From the NCBI GenBank assembly GCA_903833275.1, contig CAILEP010000031.1:186001-250000 (forward strand): DNA of 64,000 nucleotides, given 5' to 3'. The first letter of the stretch is position 1, and the number at the start of each line of letters is the position of its first letter. A program made the position numbers and the translations under genes. The notes below the pieces were generated by a model, which saw only the letters and a program-made list of their open reading frames with translations, did not search any database and had not been told where the DNA came from. Source of the DNA: an uncultured Bdellovibrionales bacterium. GTDB taxonomy: Bacteria > Bdellovibrionota > Bdellovibrionia > Bdellovibrionales > UBA1609. Below are positions 1,951 to 8,776 of this stretch, one piece after another.

Positions 1951-2610
1951 TTATCGCGGTAGAATTTCTTTAATTTTTTCAAAGCCCAGAACAATTAACA
2001 TTCGTAAGGCTTCGCGTTCAGAGCCCAAATTTAACAGGCTTTGTACCTGCCTTAATGTCTCTAGAGATCGCATGTCTAGATTTAGACTGGCAGGGCTTTG
2101 AGTTGGTGCTGGAGCGTTGTGAATTGGGCCTGATGATGTGCTAGAGCTATGTCTAAGCGGCATATGTCCAGTAACAAAAGCAGGCGTGCTAACCGTAGAT
2201 TGTAGTGCTGGCTCATGGGTGGCGGTTGGGGTTACGGCGGGTGCTACTGCTGGCGTCGTGGCGAAAGCACCCAGGCTATTCGGGTTCGGGGCAAATGAAG
2301 GGCTGTTGGCCCCGATCTCACTCTCGTCAAATTGCTTTAGGCCTTCAGCCAAAAACTTTAAATCTTTTTTGAAAGCCTCAGCGCTGGCGCTGTTCATGGC
2401 TCCACCGGAGTTTGAAGAATTGGCGCTTTCGCTCGGCGATGTTTGATTCATGCCGCCGGGTCTGCGGCGAGATTGCATGTAGAGAGACACGAGATTATCA
2501 GAGCTAGTTGCAACTTCACGAACGGACTGGGGTTGCGAGCGCAGCCATTCGTAGGCTGCTGCCAAAACGTCGCGAGTGTAAGCCTGTGGTGGTAGATTCG
2601 AAAAACTCAT
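1951..2610 (-). CDS. Hypothetical protein with helical ends and Ser/Pro/Ala-rich linker
   Basis: This 219-residue protein is not recognised. Residues 1-50 look like a folded helical segment (YTRDVLAAAYEWLRSQP). The middle (about 55-175) is a low-complexity linker rich in Ser, Asn, Pro, Thr and Ala. The C-terminal 40 residues (LETLRQVQSLLNLGSEREALRM, with a final Lys-rich helix) resemble a ribbon-helix-helix-like or dimerisation helix pair, but this is weak. No signal peptide or membrane segment. It is the last gene after the sigma-54 regulator on the same strand, 70 bp downstream of that gene's stop, and a hairpin lies just before its ATG. It could be co-expressed with the kinase-regulator operon or have its own signal. 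Confidence 0.6.
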   Translation of the reverse strand: MSFSNLPPQAYTRDVLAAAYEWLRSQPQSVREVATSSDNLVSLYMQSRRRPGGMNQTSPSESANSSNSGGAMNSASAEAFKKDLKFLAEGLKQFDESEIGANSPSFAPNPNSLGAFATTPAVAPAVTPTATHEPALQSTVSTPAFVTGHMPLRHSSSTSSGPIHNAPAPTQSPASLNLDMRSLETLRQVQSLLNLGSEREALRMLIVLGFEKIKEILPR

Positions 2611-2680: not shown

Positions 2681-4162
2681 TCAATCGGCGTAATCTTTTG
2701 CAATGATCCCATATTTTTCAATCTTTCGAAGTAAGGTTTTCTTTGGGATGTTTGCGTGCAGAGCAGTCTGATTGATTCTGCCCTTAAACATTTTAAGCGC
2801 TTTAACGATAAACTCGCGCTCAAATGCCTCTTTATGCTTGTTGAAGTCCAAGCTTTCGCCAGAAATCGATACAATGTCACGGACCTCAACCGATATATCG
2901 TCGGCATCGTCCAGACCCATTGAATCATCTTCTTCGTCTTGGTCTGCAAAATTCTTGACATTTAAATTGGCTGCAGAAAGCTCGACTCCGGTTGCGAGAA
3001 GAAAGGACTCGGGCAGAGATCGAATGGTCAGGTGAGTGCCCTCTTCAAGAATGAAAGCGTGCTCGATTACGTTTTCAAGTTCGCGAATGTTGCCTGGCCA
3101 ATCGTATTTCTTAAGTAGGGTCATGGCCTCTGGAGTCACGCCCACAATTTTTTTACTCTGTTTCTTGTTGAACTTATAAACGAAATTATTAACAAGCTGC
3201 TCGAGATCATCACGCCGCTCTGACAACGAAGGTAGAAAAATCGGCATTACGTTCATGCGATAGTAAAGATCTTCACGAAATCGGCCGTCTTTTATCATTT
3301 GCTCAAGGGGTCGATTGGTGGCCGCGATAATTCGAACGTTGGTGTCGATGTCACGGTTTGCGCCAACGGGGGTAAATGCCTTTTCTTGTAATACGCGCAG
3401 GAGTTTTACTTGCATCATGACGGGCATATCGCCTAATTCGTCAAGAAAGAGGGTGCCACCTTCAGCATATTGAAACTTGCCTATTTTACGTTGCTCGGCG
3501 CCAGTGAAAGCGCCTTTTTCGTGCCCAAACAGCTCCGACTCGAAGAGATTCTCGGGGATCGCTGAGCAGTTGATCGCGACAAACTTGCCCTCTTTATGGG
3601 CGGAGTTCATATGGATGGCTCGAGCGACAAGTTCCTTTCCTGTACCTGAAGACCCTCGAATCAATACGGGTGTATCGACCTTTGATAGCCGATTGATGAT
3701 ATGAAAAACTTTTCGCATTTGTTGGTTGGAGCCAATTATTTTGCGACCTTCTTCAGTCGCCAGCTGAGGCGCTGAGGCCACAACCTCGGAGATCAGGTTA
3801 TACGCAGTCAAGGCTTTGTTGACGAGTGCAACGAGTTCGTCGCCTTTAATGGGCTTTGAAATATAATTGTAGGCGCCATCTTTAACGGCCTGAACCGCGT
3901 CGTTGATATTGGCGTAGGCCGTCATCACAATCGCGACCATTGAGGGGTCGTGGTCTTTGATCGCGCTGAGAGCTTTTAGGCCGTTCATTCGTGGCATATC
4001 AACATCAAGGATGACCATATTGTACATGCCGGCCTTGACCTTCTCGAGAGCATTTATGCCGTCAAAAGCTTCATCGACCTGAAAATGGCCGGTTGTTTCG
4101 AGGGTATTTTTAACTGCGAGGCGAAGAGTTTGATCGTCATCGCAAACGAGGACCTTAATCAT
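2681..4162 (-). CDS. NtrC-family sigma-54-dependent response regulator
   Basis: The 493-residue product has the three classic modules. A receiver domain spans residues 1-120 with acidic pocket DDD at 8-10, phospho-acceptor Asp53 in ILDVDMP and the Lys of SKPIKG. The AAA+ sigma-54 interaction domain has Walker A GSSGTGKE, the GAFTGA loop in GHEKGAFTGAE and Walker B FLDELGD. A Fis-type helix-turn-helix ends the protein (GRINQTALHANIPKKTLLRK). It would activate sigma-54 promoters when phosphorylated. It starts 9 bp after the CHASE2 kinase stop with a strong AAGGAG site, so the kinase is its obvious partner. An acidic insert (DQDEEDDS) lies between the AAA+ and HTH domains. Target genes cannot be told. 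Confidence 0.95.
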   Translation of the reverse strand: MIKVLVCDDDQTLRLAVKNTLETTGHFQVDEAFDGINALEKVKAGMYNMVILDVDMPRMNGLKALSAIKDHDPSMVAIVMTAYANINDAVQAVKDGAYNYISKPIKGDELVALVNKALTAYNLISEVVASAPQLATEEGRKIIGSNQQMRKVFHIINRLSKVDTPVLIRGSSGTGKELVARAIHMNSAHKEGKFVAINCSAIPENLFESELFGHEKGAFTGAEQRKIGKFQYAEGGTLFLDELGDMPVMMQVKLLRVLQEKAFTPVGANRDIDTNVRIIAATNRPLEQMIKDGRFREDLYYRMNVMPIFLPSLSERRDDLEQLVNNFVYKFNKKQSKKIVGVTPEAMTLLKKYDWPGNIRELENVIEHAFILEEGTHLTIRSLPESFLLATGVELSAANLNVKNFADQDEEDDSMGLDDADDISVEVRDIVSISGESLDFNKHKEAFEREFIVKALKMFKGRINQTALHANIPKKTLLRKIEKYGIIAKDYAD

Positions 4163-4171
4163 AAATGCTCC

Positions 4172-6022
4172 TTAGAGATTCATGGGCAATTCGACGGTAA
4201 AGGTCGAGCCCTTATTTTTTTCACTTTCAACACTAATTTGCCCCTGATGAAGATCGACGAAGTAGCGAGCTAGGTAAAGACCGAGGCCAGTCCCTTTTAC
4301 GGCTCCGTCAAGTACGGTTCGGCTGCGGTAGAACTTGGTAAATAAATTACCAATCTCGTCGCTAGGTATGCCCATGCCTTGATCGGCGACCTGAACGACA
4401 ACACGGCCATCTACTTCGTCCGTGCTTACAAGAATTGAAGAATTGTCGGGCGAATATTTAATTGCGTTCTCGATCAGATTGTAAAAAACCTGGCGCATTA
4501 AATCTTCGTCAATTTTAACGCTAAAAAGGGGTTCAAATTCGGTGATGAGGTTGATGTTTTTTTGTTTTGCCAAATACTGAAGTTTTTGGGCGACTTCAGT
4601 TAATAGCGCATTTACATCTTTCGACTTGAGGTGAAGTTTTACATCTTTGCTTTCGATTCGCCCCAAATTAAGAATTGAACCAACAAACTCGGTCAATTCT
4701 TCTGACGATTGATTTATCGCACTCAGGGCCTCTTGTTGGGCGGTCGAAAGCGGAGTGGTGTCGCGAAGAGCCAGCTCAGTCATGCCCTGAATTCGGGCTA
4801 ACGGCGTTTTAAGATCATGCGACATCATTCGCAAAAAGTTCGACTTCAGTTCTTCAACCTGCGTCAGAAGATTGTTGCGCTGAAAGTACTCCCACGAACG
4901 ACGGTTTTCGATGATGAGGCGATACGGAATAAAAAAGTAGTAGCAAATAAAAATGGCAAGCAGCGGATGCGCAAAGTCGATCCAAATATTATCAAGAGCA
5001 AAAAGCCCCCATGCCACAACCGCGTAGCCAATGAGCGAAAGCGCGAGAATAAAAAGGCCGCGGCCAGGCCGCAAAGTCAGTACTACAAAAACTGTAAGCG
5101 CCGCGATCGCGCACGTAAGTAGAATGGTAAACCACTGAGGGGTTTGAATTGGTGAATCGTTTAATATCATCGAATCGAGAATATTGGCATGAAGCTCAAA
5201 GCGCGACATGGCCAAGACATCGCGTGAATAGGGGGTCATCAAATAGTCTTTTGTGTCAGACCTCGTGTCGCGGCCGATGATTACAATTTTATCTTTGAAT
5301 TTTTCTGGGCTCACTCGCCCTTCTTGCACGTCTATGTAGCTGTAGGTTTCATAAAAACCGGCAGGGTGAAAATTAATGTAAGCCTGGGTTGTTCGTTTCA
5401 TTCGAAATGAACCGCGATAGGTCTCTGACGAGGTCATGCCGTTGTATTCTTTGGCAATGGCCATATGGGCGAGTGGCTGGCCTTCGAGGTCAAAGATCAT
5501 TCGGCGGGTCACGCCGTCTTTGGCAAAGTTTTGAAGGTCCATCGTTTTTGGCGCTGATTTGACGACGACATCTTGAAGTGGCGGTAAAAGTCGAAACTCG
5601 TCTTCGAGGCCTTTCTCGGGCAACTTGCGGTCTTCAAGCATGGTGAAATCAAGACGCTTAACTTGGGTCGCCAATTCGTCAAGCTGTTCGTAAGAGCCCA
5701 TGACTTCCATAAAGTCATCGGCGTAAAGGACGTGGCGTGGCCGGGCCGCTTCGAGCTGCCTCAGCATCATAGTAAAGTCAGAAGCTTCGGGGAGCCGCTT
5801 CAACGTCTCTTGTGTTTTGGTGTCAATCGAGACCAGTACAATTTGGCCAGAGGTCTTGGCAACCGGTCGGGTGCGAACGCGGAGGTCATAAAAAAAACTT
5901 TCGATGTAATCGAGCTGAAGCTGACAAATAAAAAACGCGATCATGAGTGCCAGAGTGACACGCATGCCGGCGAACACCCAGCGGCGTTTTTTCTTTTTGT
6001 TTGGCTTTAGCTCCGACTCCAT
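4172..6022 (-). CDS. CHASE2-domain sensor histidine kinase
   Basis: The 616-residue kinase has one N-terminal membrane helix (about 18-36), a large extracytoplasmic CHASE2 domain (about 40-290, with SIDTKTQETL and KIVIIGRDT), three further helices (about 296-368), then HisKA with the phospho-acceptor His402 in SHDLKTPLAR. The HATPase domain follows with N box NLIENAIKYSP, DQGMGIP and GTGLGLYLA. It senses an unknown signal outside the inner membrane and should phosphorylate the regulator encoded 9 bp downstream. It starts 25 bp after the stop of a 40-residue peptide gene, which in turn follows a radical SAM maturase, so a modified peptide is one possible ligand. That link is inference from gene order only. 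Confidence 0.93.
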   Translation of the reverse strand: MESELKPNKKKKRRWVFAGMRVTLALMIAFFICQLQLDYIESFFYDLRVRTRPVAKTSGQIVLVSIDTKTQETLKRLPEASDFTMMLRQLEAARPRHVLYADDFMEVMGSYEQLDELATQVKRLDFTMLEDRKLPEKGLEDEFRLLPPLQDVVVKSAPKTMDLQNFAKDGVTRRMIFDLEGQPLAHMAIAKEYNGMTSSETYRGSFRMKRTTQAYINFHPAGFYETYSYIDVQEGRVSPEKFKDKIVIIGRDTRSDTKDYLMTPYSRDVLAMSRFELHANILDSMILNDSPIQTPQWFTILLTCAIAALTVFVVLTLRPGRGLFILALSLIGYAVVAWGLFALDNIWIDFAHPLLAIFICYYFFIPYRLIIENRRSWEYFQRNNLLTQVEELKSNFLRMMSHDLKTPLARIQGMTELALRDTTPLSTAQQEALSAINQSSEELTEFVGSILNLGRIESKDVKLHLKSKDVNALLTEVAQKLQYLAKQKNINLITEFEPLFSVKIDEDLMRQVFYNLIENAIKYSPDNSSILVSTDEVDGRVVVQVADQGMGIPSDEIGNLFTKFYRSRTVLDGAVKGTGLGLYLARYFVDLHQGQISVESEKNKGSTFTVELPMNL

Positions 6023-6047
6023 GACTATTTTTGCCTTCGGTTTACGT

Positions 6048-6170
6048 TTAATGAATCTCGGGGCAGGATTGGCGTGCTTTTTTGCCCTCTTTATTTAGAG
6101 CTTCACGCGTCTTAGTATCTGCTGTGCGTTTTGATGCATCTTTGGCCGATATCTTTTTAATATTTTTCAT
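6048..6170 (-). CDS. 40-residue peptide, candidate radical-SAM substrate (RiPP precursor)
   Basis: A short gene between the radical SAM/SPASM gene (stop 30 bp upstream) and the CHASE2 kinase (start 25 bp downstream), same strand. It has an ATG preceded by an excellent Shine-Dalgarno (AAAGGAG, 7 nt before the ATG). The product is Lys-rich: 10 Lys, a charged, helix-prone body (residues 9-33), and a distinct tail QSCPEIH with a single Cys36. There is no signal peptide. Position and size fit a ribosomally made precursor whose C-terminal core, possibly at Cys36, is modified by the maturase. Reservations: only one Cys, no recognised leader motif and no transporter or protease gene next door. It may instead be a small regulator or unrelated. 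Confidence 0.6.
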   Translation of the reverse strand: MKNIKKISAKDASKRTADTKTREALNKEGKKARQSCPEIH

Positions 6171-6200
6171 TTTGTGCTCCTTTAAAGCAGTTTATTAAAA

Positions 6201-7499
6201 TTAATTCTCGCTAAAACTATCAGCAAAGTACTGAATGGCCGTTGCTGAGAGTTCTCGTGTTCTATAACAAAAATTTGGATTCTTGCCGTGACGATGGCCC
6301 GAATGCCCTTTATGCACAGCCATGCAACCGCCTCCACACAGATGGCGCGCCCAACAAGATTCGCAATTATTTAATTCGATAAGTGAGGGCTGATATTTCG
6401 CCAATTTGGTTTCGTCGATTGACGTGAGGTGGCCGATTTTTTCTGACGGGTCATTCATAAACCAATTGCAAGTGTAGAGATCAGCTTTTGTATCAGCGAG
6501 AAGGAGTGACTTGCCCGCTGAGCAGTACGAATGAGTACGAGTTTGTGAAGTGAGGCGAGCAAGCGGTCGGCGAAATTGAGCAATACTTGAAACCCCTTCG
6601 AGGCCGTGGGTTTTAAAGAGTCGGGCGCCCAGCTCGCGCATTTCGTTAACATAATTTTGTGTGGCTCGCTCTTCGTCAGCTTGGTTATTGGCGAAATTAA
6701 AATTGATAACATCCCAATTCATGTCGAGACTTTGCAAGAAATCGTATGTTTCGATAACGGCCGTGTTATGCACTCCAAAAACCGTATTTACATTTAGATA
6801 GATAAGTTGTGCTCGAAATTTTGCTAATTCGCGTAGACCCAAAAGAGTCATTTCTGTCGATGAGGTGGTTTTTGATTTCGACGGTCGAAATTGGTCATTA
6901 AGCGCAGGCGGGCCATCAAGACTGATGGTTACGCCGAAATGGTAGCGACCTAAAATATCCGCCACTGTCGAAGTAATTAAAGTGCCATTGGTCGTGATGA
7001 CAAACTCAAGCTCGATGGGGCGACCGGCCGTGCTGAGTTTTGCAAAGCGGCAAAGTGAATCAATGATTTGTGGGTAGAGAAGGGGTTCGCCGCCAAGAAA
7101 TTCAATTCGAAAAGTCTGATTAATTTTAGCGCGACCTAGAAAAAATTGAATTTGCGCTTCGGCCTTCGAGGTGTCGATTTTAGTTACTGGAGACCCGTAA
7201 GTACCATCGCCGCCGGCCGCACAATAGGTGCATTTAAGGTTGCAAATCTGCGCGACATTAAGTGAGAGGGTTTGGATATTGTCGACGGTCACTTCGTCAG
7301 AAGTGGCGGGGTCGATTTCGTTATTCCAAGTTTCAATTTCTCGGCGTGCATCAACGTCGAAGGCGGGTTGAGTGCCATCAAGGTCGCGCCAGGCTTCAGG
7401 CGTGATTTCAGCCACCGCGAGGTTGCGCGCGTGAAAACCGATGAAGCGATTAGCCTCGGTTTGTACGGCGAAAATATTTTTATAACGACGCTGTTCCAA
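6201..7499 (-). CDS. Radical SAM/SPASM peptide maturase
   Basis: The 432-residue product starts at TTG, with GAGG 7 nt upstream and an in-frame TGA directly before it. The N-terminal 60 residues resemble the substrate-handling extension of peptide-modifying enzymes. The radical SAM cluster is CNLKCTYC (Cys86, 90, 93) followed by AAGGDGTYG, a signature shared with thioether-forming and related SPASM maturases; LGGEPLLYP binds SAM. The C-terminal SPASM region has CSAG...YTC, then CESCWARHLCGGGC (Cx2Cx5Cx3C), a His-rich stretch and a final NFC, enough for two auxiliary Fe-S clusters. It probably modifies a peptide by radical chemistry. The nearest candidate substrate is the 40-residue peptide gene 30 bp downstream. 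The exact subfamily and the chemistry are unknown. Confidence 0.9.
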   Translation of the reverse strand: MEQRRYKNIFAVQTEANRFIGFHARNLAVAEITPEAWRDLDGTQPAFDVDARREIETWNNEIDPATSDEVTVDNIQTLSLNVAQICNLKCTYCAAGGDGTYGSPVTKIDTSKAEAQIQFFLGRAKINQTFRIEFLGGEPLLYPQIIDSLCRFAKLSTAGRPIELEFVITTNGTLITSTVADILGRYHFGVTISLDGPPALNDQFRPSKSKTTSSTEMTLLGLRELAKFRAQLIYLNVNTVFGVHNTAVIETYDFLQSLDMNWDVINFNFANNQADEERATQNYVNEMRELGARLFKTHGLEGVSSIAQFRRPLARLTSQTRTHSYCSAGKSLLLADTKADLYTCNWFMNDPSEKIGHLTSIDETKLAKYQPSLIELNNCESCWARHLCGGGCMAVHKGHSGHRHGKNPNFCYRTRELSATAIQYFADSFSEN

Positions 7500-7542: not shown

Positions 7543-7570
7543 CTTATGTCTAAAGCAAGACCTTTGCCAA
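7543..7570 (-). promoter_or_regulatory. Candidate sigma-70 promoter for the radical SAM operon
   Basis: On the minus strand TTGGCA (7570-7565) is followed after 16 nt by CATAAG (7548-7543). Transcription would begin near 7536, giving a leader of about 37 nt to the TTG start codon. The fit to consensus is moderate and no other candidate in the gap is clearly better. Confidence 0.35.
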
Positions 7571-7663: not shown

Positions 7664-7687
7664 GTGTCACTTTGACACCAATATTCG
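7664..7687. promoter_or_regulatory. Short palindrome plus distal copy of the 15-nt repeat
   Basis: GTGTCA (7664-7669), loop CTT, TGACAC (7673-7678) form a perfect 6-bp palindrome. Its right arm begins the second copy of the 15-nt repeat (TGACACCAATATTCG, 7673-7687). The site is about 100 bp upstream of the candidate -35 of the radical SAM operon and about 20 bp after the stop of the next gene. It could be an operator or a weak terminator for the upstream gene; there is no clear T-run. Confidence 0.35.
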
Positions 7688-7707: not shown

Positions 7708-8592
7708 CTATTTAGAGGTCAGCTGATAGACGAGAACGAAGGTTTTCATAATGTGCGAATCGACCTCATGAAGCTGAACTTCTATGGTCAATTGGTGATT
7801 TTCGGTCTGCCAACGTGGGTTTATGAAAACCTCGTAATTAAGGTCTCCCACTTTTTGGTCATATTGATAATTGCCGACTTCATCAAAAGGGCCGTCCGCT
7901 TGATTTAGCGTAGAGAGCGGGTTGATCTCGGCCTTGGGGTTGGTCGTTAGAGCGAAATCATAGGCGCCCTCTGGGTCGCGAAGGCCGAAAGATCTCTGAG
8001 CTTCTGACGAAGCCAAATGAAAGTTATAGCGCCCAAGATCAATATCAGAAAACTGCGGGCGGCCTTGTTTAATCTCAATTTTATTTGGGATGAGAATGGC
8101 TGAACTTATTGTTCGCTCGTCAGCCTCATTGATTCTGTCGGTAAAAAAAGTCACCTGACTCTCGTGTTGAGACTCGGATGGTAAATTGTGAATAAACATA
8201 ACTTCAAAACGATTCTCAACATTCTGATAATGAGAAAGAACCGACGTTAGTTTGAGAGAGCCGATTGCGATTTTATTTTTGAGCCAGTGATCGCTGTTCC
8301 ACTGAAATGGCAATGCCGGGCCAGCGATTTTTGAAATCTCATTGGTGATTTCGTCTGAATCGCGAAGGCCGCTTTGCAGTTCGTGTATGGGGTCATACTT
8401 GGTGCTAAGGTTTTCTTCGTTTTTGGCGTCACTGGCGTAGGCCAGCCCGGCGGCACTCAAAGCGCGTGAAGATAAACCGCTTCGATTGAGCAGGTCGTCG
8501 TCCGTAAAGCGAGGGGTCAGGGCGCCTGACATAATGACGGCCGAGATCAGGCCAATATTGCGCGAAAAAATTTGAAAAAATCGAGAGTTCAT
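7708..8592 (-). CDS. Secreted hypothetical protein
   Basis: A 294-residue protein of unknown function. I place the start at the ATG at 8592, which gives a signal-peptide-like terminus (MNSRFFQIFSRNIG then hydrophobic residues); a GTG at 8622 is in frame, but neither has a convincing ribosome site. The mature part looks soluble and beta-rich, with alternating charged and hydrophobic residues after residue 100 and few Cys. No family motif is recognised. It lies 184 bp downstream of the PBP1B gene on the same strand and upstream of the radical SAM operon, from which it is separated by 208 bp. A periplasmic location is inferred. Confidence 0.55.
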   Translation of the reverse strand: MNSRFFQIFSRNIGLISAVIMSGALTPRFTDDDLLNRSGLSSRALSAAGLAYASDAKNEENLSTKYDPIHELQSGLRDSDEITNEISKIAGPALPFQWNSDHWLKNKIAIGSLKLTSVLSHYQNVENRFEVMFIHNLPSESQHESQVTFFTDRINEADERTISSAILIPNKIEIKQGRPQFSDIDLGRYNFHLASSEAQRSFGLRDPEGAYDFALTTNPKAEINPLSTLNQADGPFDEVGNYQYDQKVGDLNYEVFINPRWQTENHQLTIEVQLHEVDSHIMKTFVLVYQLTSK

Positions 8593-8776
8593 GAGGTTAG
8601 ATCTATCCAATCCTTGTGCCACAAATCAGGTCGGGGGTTTTTGAATTCTCGACAATTTCAAATGGTTGCGTGTTTGAGAAGAGCCGAATTGATGAAATTT
8701 TTGACGGTGAGTGAATAAATTTCTTTTGTGATTAGTGCAAAAATAAGCGCGAAAATCGTCAGTTTCAATTAGCCGC

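Follow-up and report, generated by a model that had tools for sequence, protein, structure and literature searches.

A one-cysteine peptide gene beside a radical SAM/SPASM gene in a Bdellovibrionota sensor-kinase operon: a probable RiPP precursor

Does the 178-bp gap (6023-6200) between a radical SAM/SPASM enzyme gene and a CHASE2 sensor kinase gene of an uncultured Bdellovibrionales bacterium hold a gene, and how might its product relate to the two neighbours? An earlier note on the 64,000-nucleotide stretch of DNA analysed here (the window) had given the correct size of this gap and proposed an overlooked 40-residue gene inside it. The ORF is indeed present and runs from 6170 to 6048 of the minus strand, a strand that the note had not specified; there, an ATG is followed by 40 codons (MKNIKKISAKDASKRTADTKTREALNKEGKKARQSCPEIH) and a TAA stop; the plus strand over 6048-6170 is interrupted by stops. 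The claimed ribosome site is present as AAGGAG, at a spacing of 6 rather than 7 nt from the ATG. While the gene and its tail had been seen, they had not been connected to the adjacent radical SAM enzyme and two-component operon, which comprise the following features:

6048..6170, minus strand: gene of the 40-aa peptide, a very probable precursor, with homologues at the equivalent position in all intact related loci
6177..6182, minus strand: Shine-Dalgarno AAGGAG of this gene, recognised from the sequence
6201..7499, minus strand: radical SAM/SPASM maturase of 432 aa, with a TTG start and a predicted N-terminal RRE-like domain
4172..6022, minus strand: CHASE2 sensor histidine kinase (CHASE2, HisKA and HATPase_c domains)
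2681..4162, minus strand: NtrC-type response regulator (receiver, sigma-54 activator and Fis HTH domains)

A homology search with the maturase detected related loci in Bdellovibrionota, one of them (L015) from B. bacteriovorus strain kdesi; outside this group, it yielded only distant SPASM proteins. At E<=1e-40, the maturase was found in 78 of 369 Bdellovibrionota genomes, all belonging to three families of one order. After removal of identical maturase sequences and with intact downstream DNA required, 50 loci remained, all from Bdellovibrionota, and every one of them carried a short ORF directly behind the maturase gene, in line with the view that this gene had been overlooked. Three of these 50 ORFs escaped the script and were recognised when its translations were read. 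A motif-defined ORF was recovered by regular expression in 49 of the 50 loci and by eye in the last one. Dinucleotide shuffles yielded such an ORF in 0.56 of 50 loci, and 5 of 1623 control windows contained one. Because the motif was taken from the same loci on which the shuffle test was run, a profile search of whole genomes is the cleaner test. This search matched 43 of 44 genomes with the maturase gene and 0 of 55 without it: 42 genomes matched at E<=6.5e-5, all of them with the maturase, together with a split-contig case at 0.018, and no match better than 0.02 was obtained in the 55 genomes lacking the enzyme. The one maturase-positive genome without a precursor match (G079) has a maturase match spanning only 223 residues. 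In addition, pN is far below pS in close precursor pairs (e.g., 0.03/0.33, 0.05/0.37, and 0.07/0.63), so that the synonymous-site comparison, which the earlier note had named as a possible refutation, revealed protein-level constraint and indicates purifying selection on the ORF. The short length of the ORF, and the fact that no NCBIfam or Pfam model of known precursor families scores above cutoff for the peptide, would suit a chance ORF in an intergenic gap, but this explanation is contradicted by the codon substitution pattern, the shuffle and control counts, and the profile co-occurrence. We therefore rejected a chance ORF on conservation and substitution pattern, leaving it a negligible probability, and regard 6048-6170 as a real gene with near certainty.

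What is the peptide for? As in RiPP systems, the gene of a short precursor is linked in these loci to that of a modifying enzyme, and we are highly confident that the ORF encodes the precursor of the adjacent maturase. It could instead encode an ordinary small protein that the radical SAM enzyme leaves unmodified, for example a modulator of the kinase, since the ORF abuts the kinase gene and small kinase modulators exist; however, the peptide was never found without the radical SAM gene, although the kinase is common without both, which makes such a protein very improbable.

Read as a precursor, the peptide has two conserved ends:

6147..6170, minus strand: conserved leader motif, residues 1-8 (MKNIKKIS), with the lowest entropy of the N-terminal half
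6048..6074, minus strand: core tail, residues 33-40 and stop (RQSCPEIH), with the invariant Cys36

The 49 distinct peptides have a median length of 38 aa. Close to the N-terminus they share HI[KR] or a similar motif, and all of them have a single C-terminal cysteine (49/49). The family consensus of the leader is KHIKK[IV]KP, with residues 1-8 reading [M/V]KHIKK[IV]K in relatives, and the motif columns hold Ile in 45 and Lys in 44 and 43 of 48 peptides; as start codons were picked with this motif in view, the exact N-termini are provisional. Residues 9-33, which had been proposed as the leader, are a charged, unconserved spacer that varies in length among relatives and were rejected for this role, while residues 1-8 represent the putative leader element. 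In two precursors (L123, L127), the spacers are stretched (72-78 residues) and both conserved ends are unchanged. The positions given earlier for Cys36, Pro37, Glu38, and His40 are correct, and the suggestion that the cysteine-containing tail is the core gains support from the invariant cysteine, making it a probable RiPP precursor core. The expectation that the tail is more conserved than the body was borne out for the cysteine and for position C+2, which is Pro in 42, Glu in 6, and Ile in 1 of the 49 peptides, but not for Glu38 or for His40 (His at C+4 in 3/49), which are not family features. In the genus of the window, the tail reads C-P-E-[IR].

The maturase carries the CX3CX2C motif and cysteine set of a SPASM radical SAM enzyme. 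Ten cysteines are invariant in 49 sequences, three for the SAM cluster (C86, C90, C93) and three (C326, C344, C392) and four (C379, C382, C388, C411) for auxiliary clusters, and this set corresponds to the cysteines mutated in PapB (PMC10470005). Among solved structures, CteB matches best, in the profile search (E 3e-50) as well as in the comparison with the predicted fold of the maturase (pLDDT 94.4, TM 0.80). Residues 2-60 form predicted strands and helices, with a Foldseek alignment to CteB of about 450 columns, and are RRE-like by prediction. Among NCBIfam models, PapB scored best with 169 bits (cutoff 340); the SCIFF maturase model gave 119 (425) and the anSME model 87 (349), so that the enzyme falls below the curated cutoff of all three.

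It is likely that the maturase modifies the peptide at its single cysteine. By analogy, thioether formation is the likeliest chemistry and moderately favoured by us, based on the ten invariant cysteines shared with PapB and on CteB as best solved match. Among the 49 peptides, no conserved column of Asp, Glu, Asn, or Thr was found as thioether acceptor. Conversion of the cysteine to formylglycine, as carried out by anaerobic sulfatase-maturating enzymes (anSMEs), was weighed because of the tails: C-x-P is present in 42/49 and C-x-P-x-[RK], the sulfatase motif, in 18/49, and anSME structures formed the second fold group in the structure comparison. The aspartate after SPASM Cys276 is the catalytic base of anSME. 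In the maturase, the position after the matching cysteine is Asn345 in the window and mostly Pro in relatives, and there are seven SPASM cysteines instead of eight. Thus, despite the anSME-like fold and target-like C-x-P(-x-R) motif, the missing eighth cysteine and aspartate and the anSME model score far below cutoff render formylglycine unlikely and favour the thioether. A further difference from anSME is the free short peptide as substrate. Two further candidates were rejected: cyclophane chemistry, as the core contains no conserved aromatic residue, and a crocagin-type leader (NF038375), matched by 1 of 47 members with 13.5 bits (cutoff 27).

Compared to known thioether systems, the cassette resembles SCIFF ranthipeptides (CteA/CteB, TIGR03973/TIGR03974) in its short precursor beside a SPASM radical SAM enzyme, whose N-terminus is RRE-like by prediction here, and in an N-terminal KHIK motif in register with the Bdellovibrionota peptides. 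Profile comparison aligned exactly this KHIK part with SCIFF precursors (hhalign E 0.006), but with an hhalign probability of only 6%, the likeness is suggestive only. In contrast to the six cysteines in about 45 residues of the SCIFF precursor, the window peptide has one, the TIGR03973 precursor model gave no match at E<=1 among 47 members, and the window-type cassette was found in Bdellovibrionota only, inside a sigma-54 two-component operon. Distant maturase homologues at seven loci (L024, L025, L027, L029, L032, L040, L068) lie about 500 bp behind SCIFF precursors with KHIK N-termini. With PapA/PapB (freyrasin), the maturase shares the 3+3+4 cysteine ligand set, whereas the window precursor lacks C-x3-D repeats and the PapB model score stays below cutoff.

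Which circuit does the cassette belong to? The kinase gene directly follows the precursor gene in 50/50 loci from three families, and the regulator gene follows the kinase gene wherever the DNA reaches far enough, except in L124, where it lies on the other side. Upstream of the maturase gene are two putative control elements:

7554..7569, minus strand: sigma-54 -24/-12 promoter TGGCAAAGGTCTTGCT, with an equivalent site in 42/49 loci
7664..7678, no strand assigned: palindrome GTGTCAAAGTGACAC, putative NtrC-type regulator site

Against these 42 sigma-54 sites, a background of 0.028 per 250 nt predicts about 1.4. Roughly 95 bp upstream of the promoter is the perfect palindrome GTGTCAAAGTGACAC, and a genome-wide regulon search found its exact sequence at this operon only. 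In relatives, the palindrome is located upstream of the radical SAM gene if this is present and upstream of the kinase gene if it is absent, the latter also in two genomes of the window's genus. This placement, with or without the radical SAM gene, suggests that the operon is controlled by the regulator it encodes, the probable binder of the palindrome, and that the cassette is placed between this control region and the kinase gene. The operon therefore resembles NtrC-type sigma-54 two-component systems in its receiver, AAA+, and Fis domains and in a promoter arrangement suggestive of autoregulation, but differs from them by a RiPP cassette as its first genes. A one-mismatch copy of the palindrome (GTGTCACTCTGGCAC) is located in the start of the kinase gene (5947-5961, no strand assigned). 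In the Bdellovibrio group (L004, L005, L012, L015, L089-L100, L114), the sigma-54 site ahead of the radical SAM gene is preceded by another highly conserved element, TGAAATAGTTTCCTTTTG, accompanied by a second block resembling GGGCAAAAATACACC; this element is possibly the regulator site of that lineage.

Distances between maturases correlate with those between kinases and between regulators (r about 0.83), and the presence of the radical SAM gene requires 6 changes on a quick regulator tree versus 23 when shuffled. Both observations fit mainly vertical inheritance with losses. The kinase/regulator pair was present without radical SAM or precursor gene in 33 examined loci; as the pair survives without the cassette, the peptide is not its only input and appears as an accessory of an apparently autoregulated circuit. 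No CHASE2 residues separating kinases with and without the cassette were found across families, and co-evolving residues as a candidate were dropped, none being common to the cassette-associated kinases of all families. A comparison of the genes neighbouring the precursor gene in the window revealed neither a dedicated exporter nor a peptidase gene.

On balance, we lean towards the ORF being the precursor of a radical-SAM-modified RiPP in a self-activating kinase/regulator operon, whose product modulates the circuit. Leader residues 1-8 would bind the RRE-like N-terminal domain of the enzyme, and the maturase would, in analogy to CteB and PapB, join Cys36 through a thioether to a residue close by. 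The cassette would belong to a sigma-54-driven, self-activating operon of CHASE2 kinase and NtrC regulator, and the modified product would serve the cell as its own regulatory or signalling peptide, acting on the kinase circuit. Whether the kinase circuit receives input from the peptide or only produces it is evenly balanced in our judgement: the kinase occurs in many genomes without the peptide, which argues against an obligate ligand, and the unchanging place of the cassette in the operon speaks for coupling of some kind. A pure output, i.e., an effector or protective peptide that is modified, is produced on firing of the kinase/regulator pair and exerts no feedback on the kinase, is a possible but less probable reading. 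The cassette at the head of the operon, following palindrome and sigma-54 promoter, the kinase/regulator pair without it, and the lack of visible CHASE2 specialisation all agree with an output, while the kinase adjacency kept in all 50 loci speaks against it, although vertical operon inheritance could also keep this order. Hence, a modulatory or signalling role is slightly favoured over a pure effector. More specifically, a Bdellovibrio-wide loop, in which a thioether-bearing one-cysteine minimal ranthipeptide produced by the predator is sensed by the neighbouring CHASE2 kinase and amplifies its own production via the sigma-54 regulator, is conceivable but rather doubtful.

The precursor/maturase pair in a sensor-kinase operon suggests a modified-peptide signal or effector, which appears to be undescribed; our literature search on Bdellovibrio radical SAM, RiPP, or CHASE2, which covered few subscription papers, returned nothing relevant. 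The best-studied bacterial predators, among them Bdellovibrio bacteriovorus, would thus share a conserved RiPP system that has its own regulatory circuit built in and whose core, with one cysteine, is unusually small. The locus would thereby offer a concrete test case for whether Bdellovibrio regulates itself by a modified peptide, and the peptide a minimal substrate for studies of SPASM chemistry.

Two further genes accompany the operon. A 304-aa protein without Pfam or NCBIfam match (7708-8622, minus strand) is encoded between a penicillin-binding protein gene and the radical SAM gene in the window's genus only, and its homologue directly precedes the kinase in a locus without the cassette (L139). 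At the other end, the regulator gene is followed in most relatives by the gene of an uncharacterised 219-aa protein (1951-2610, minus strand), whether or not the radical SAM cassette is present.
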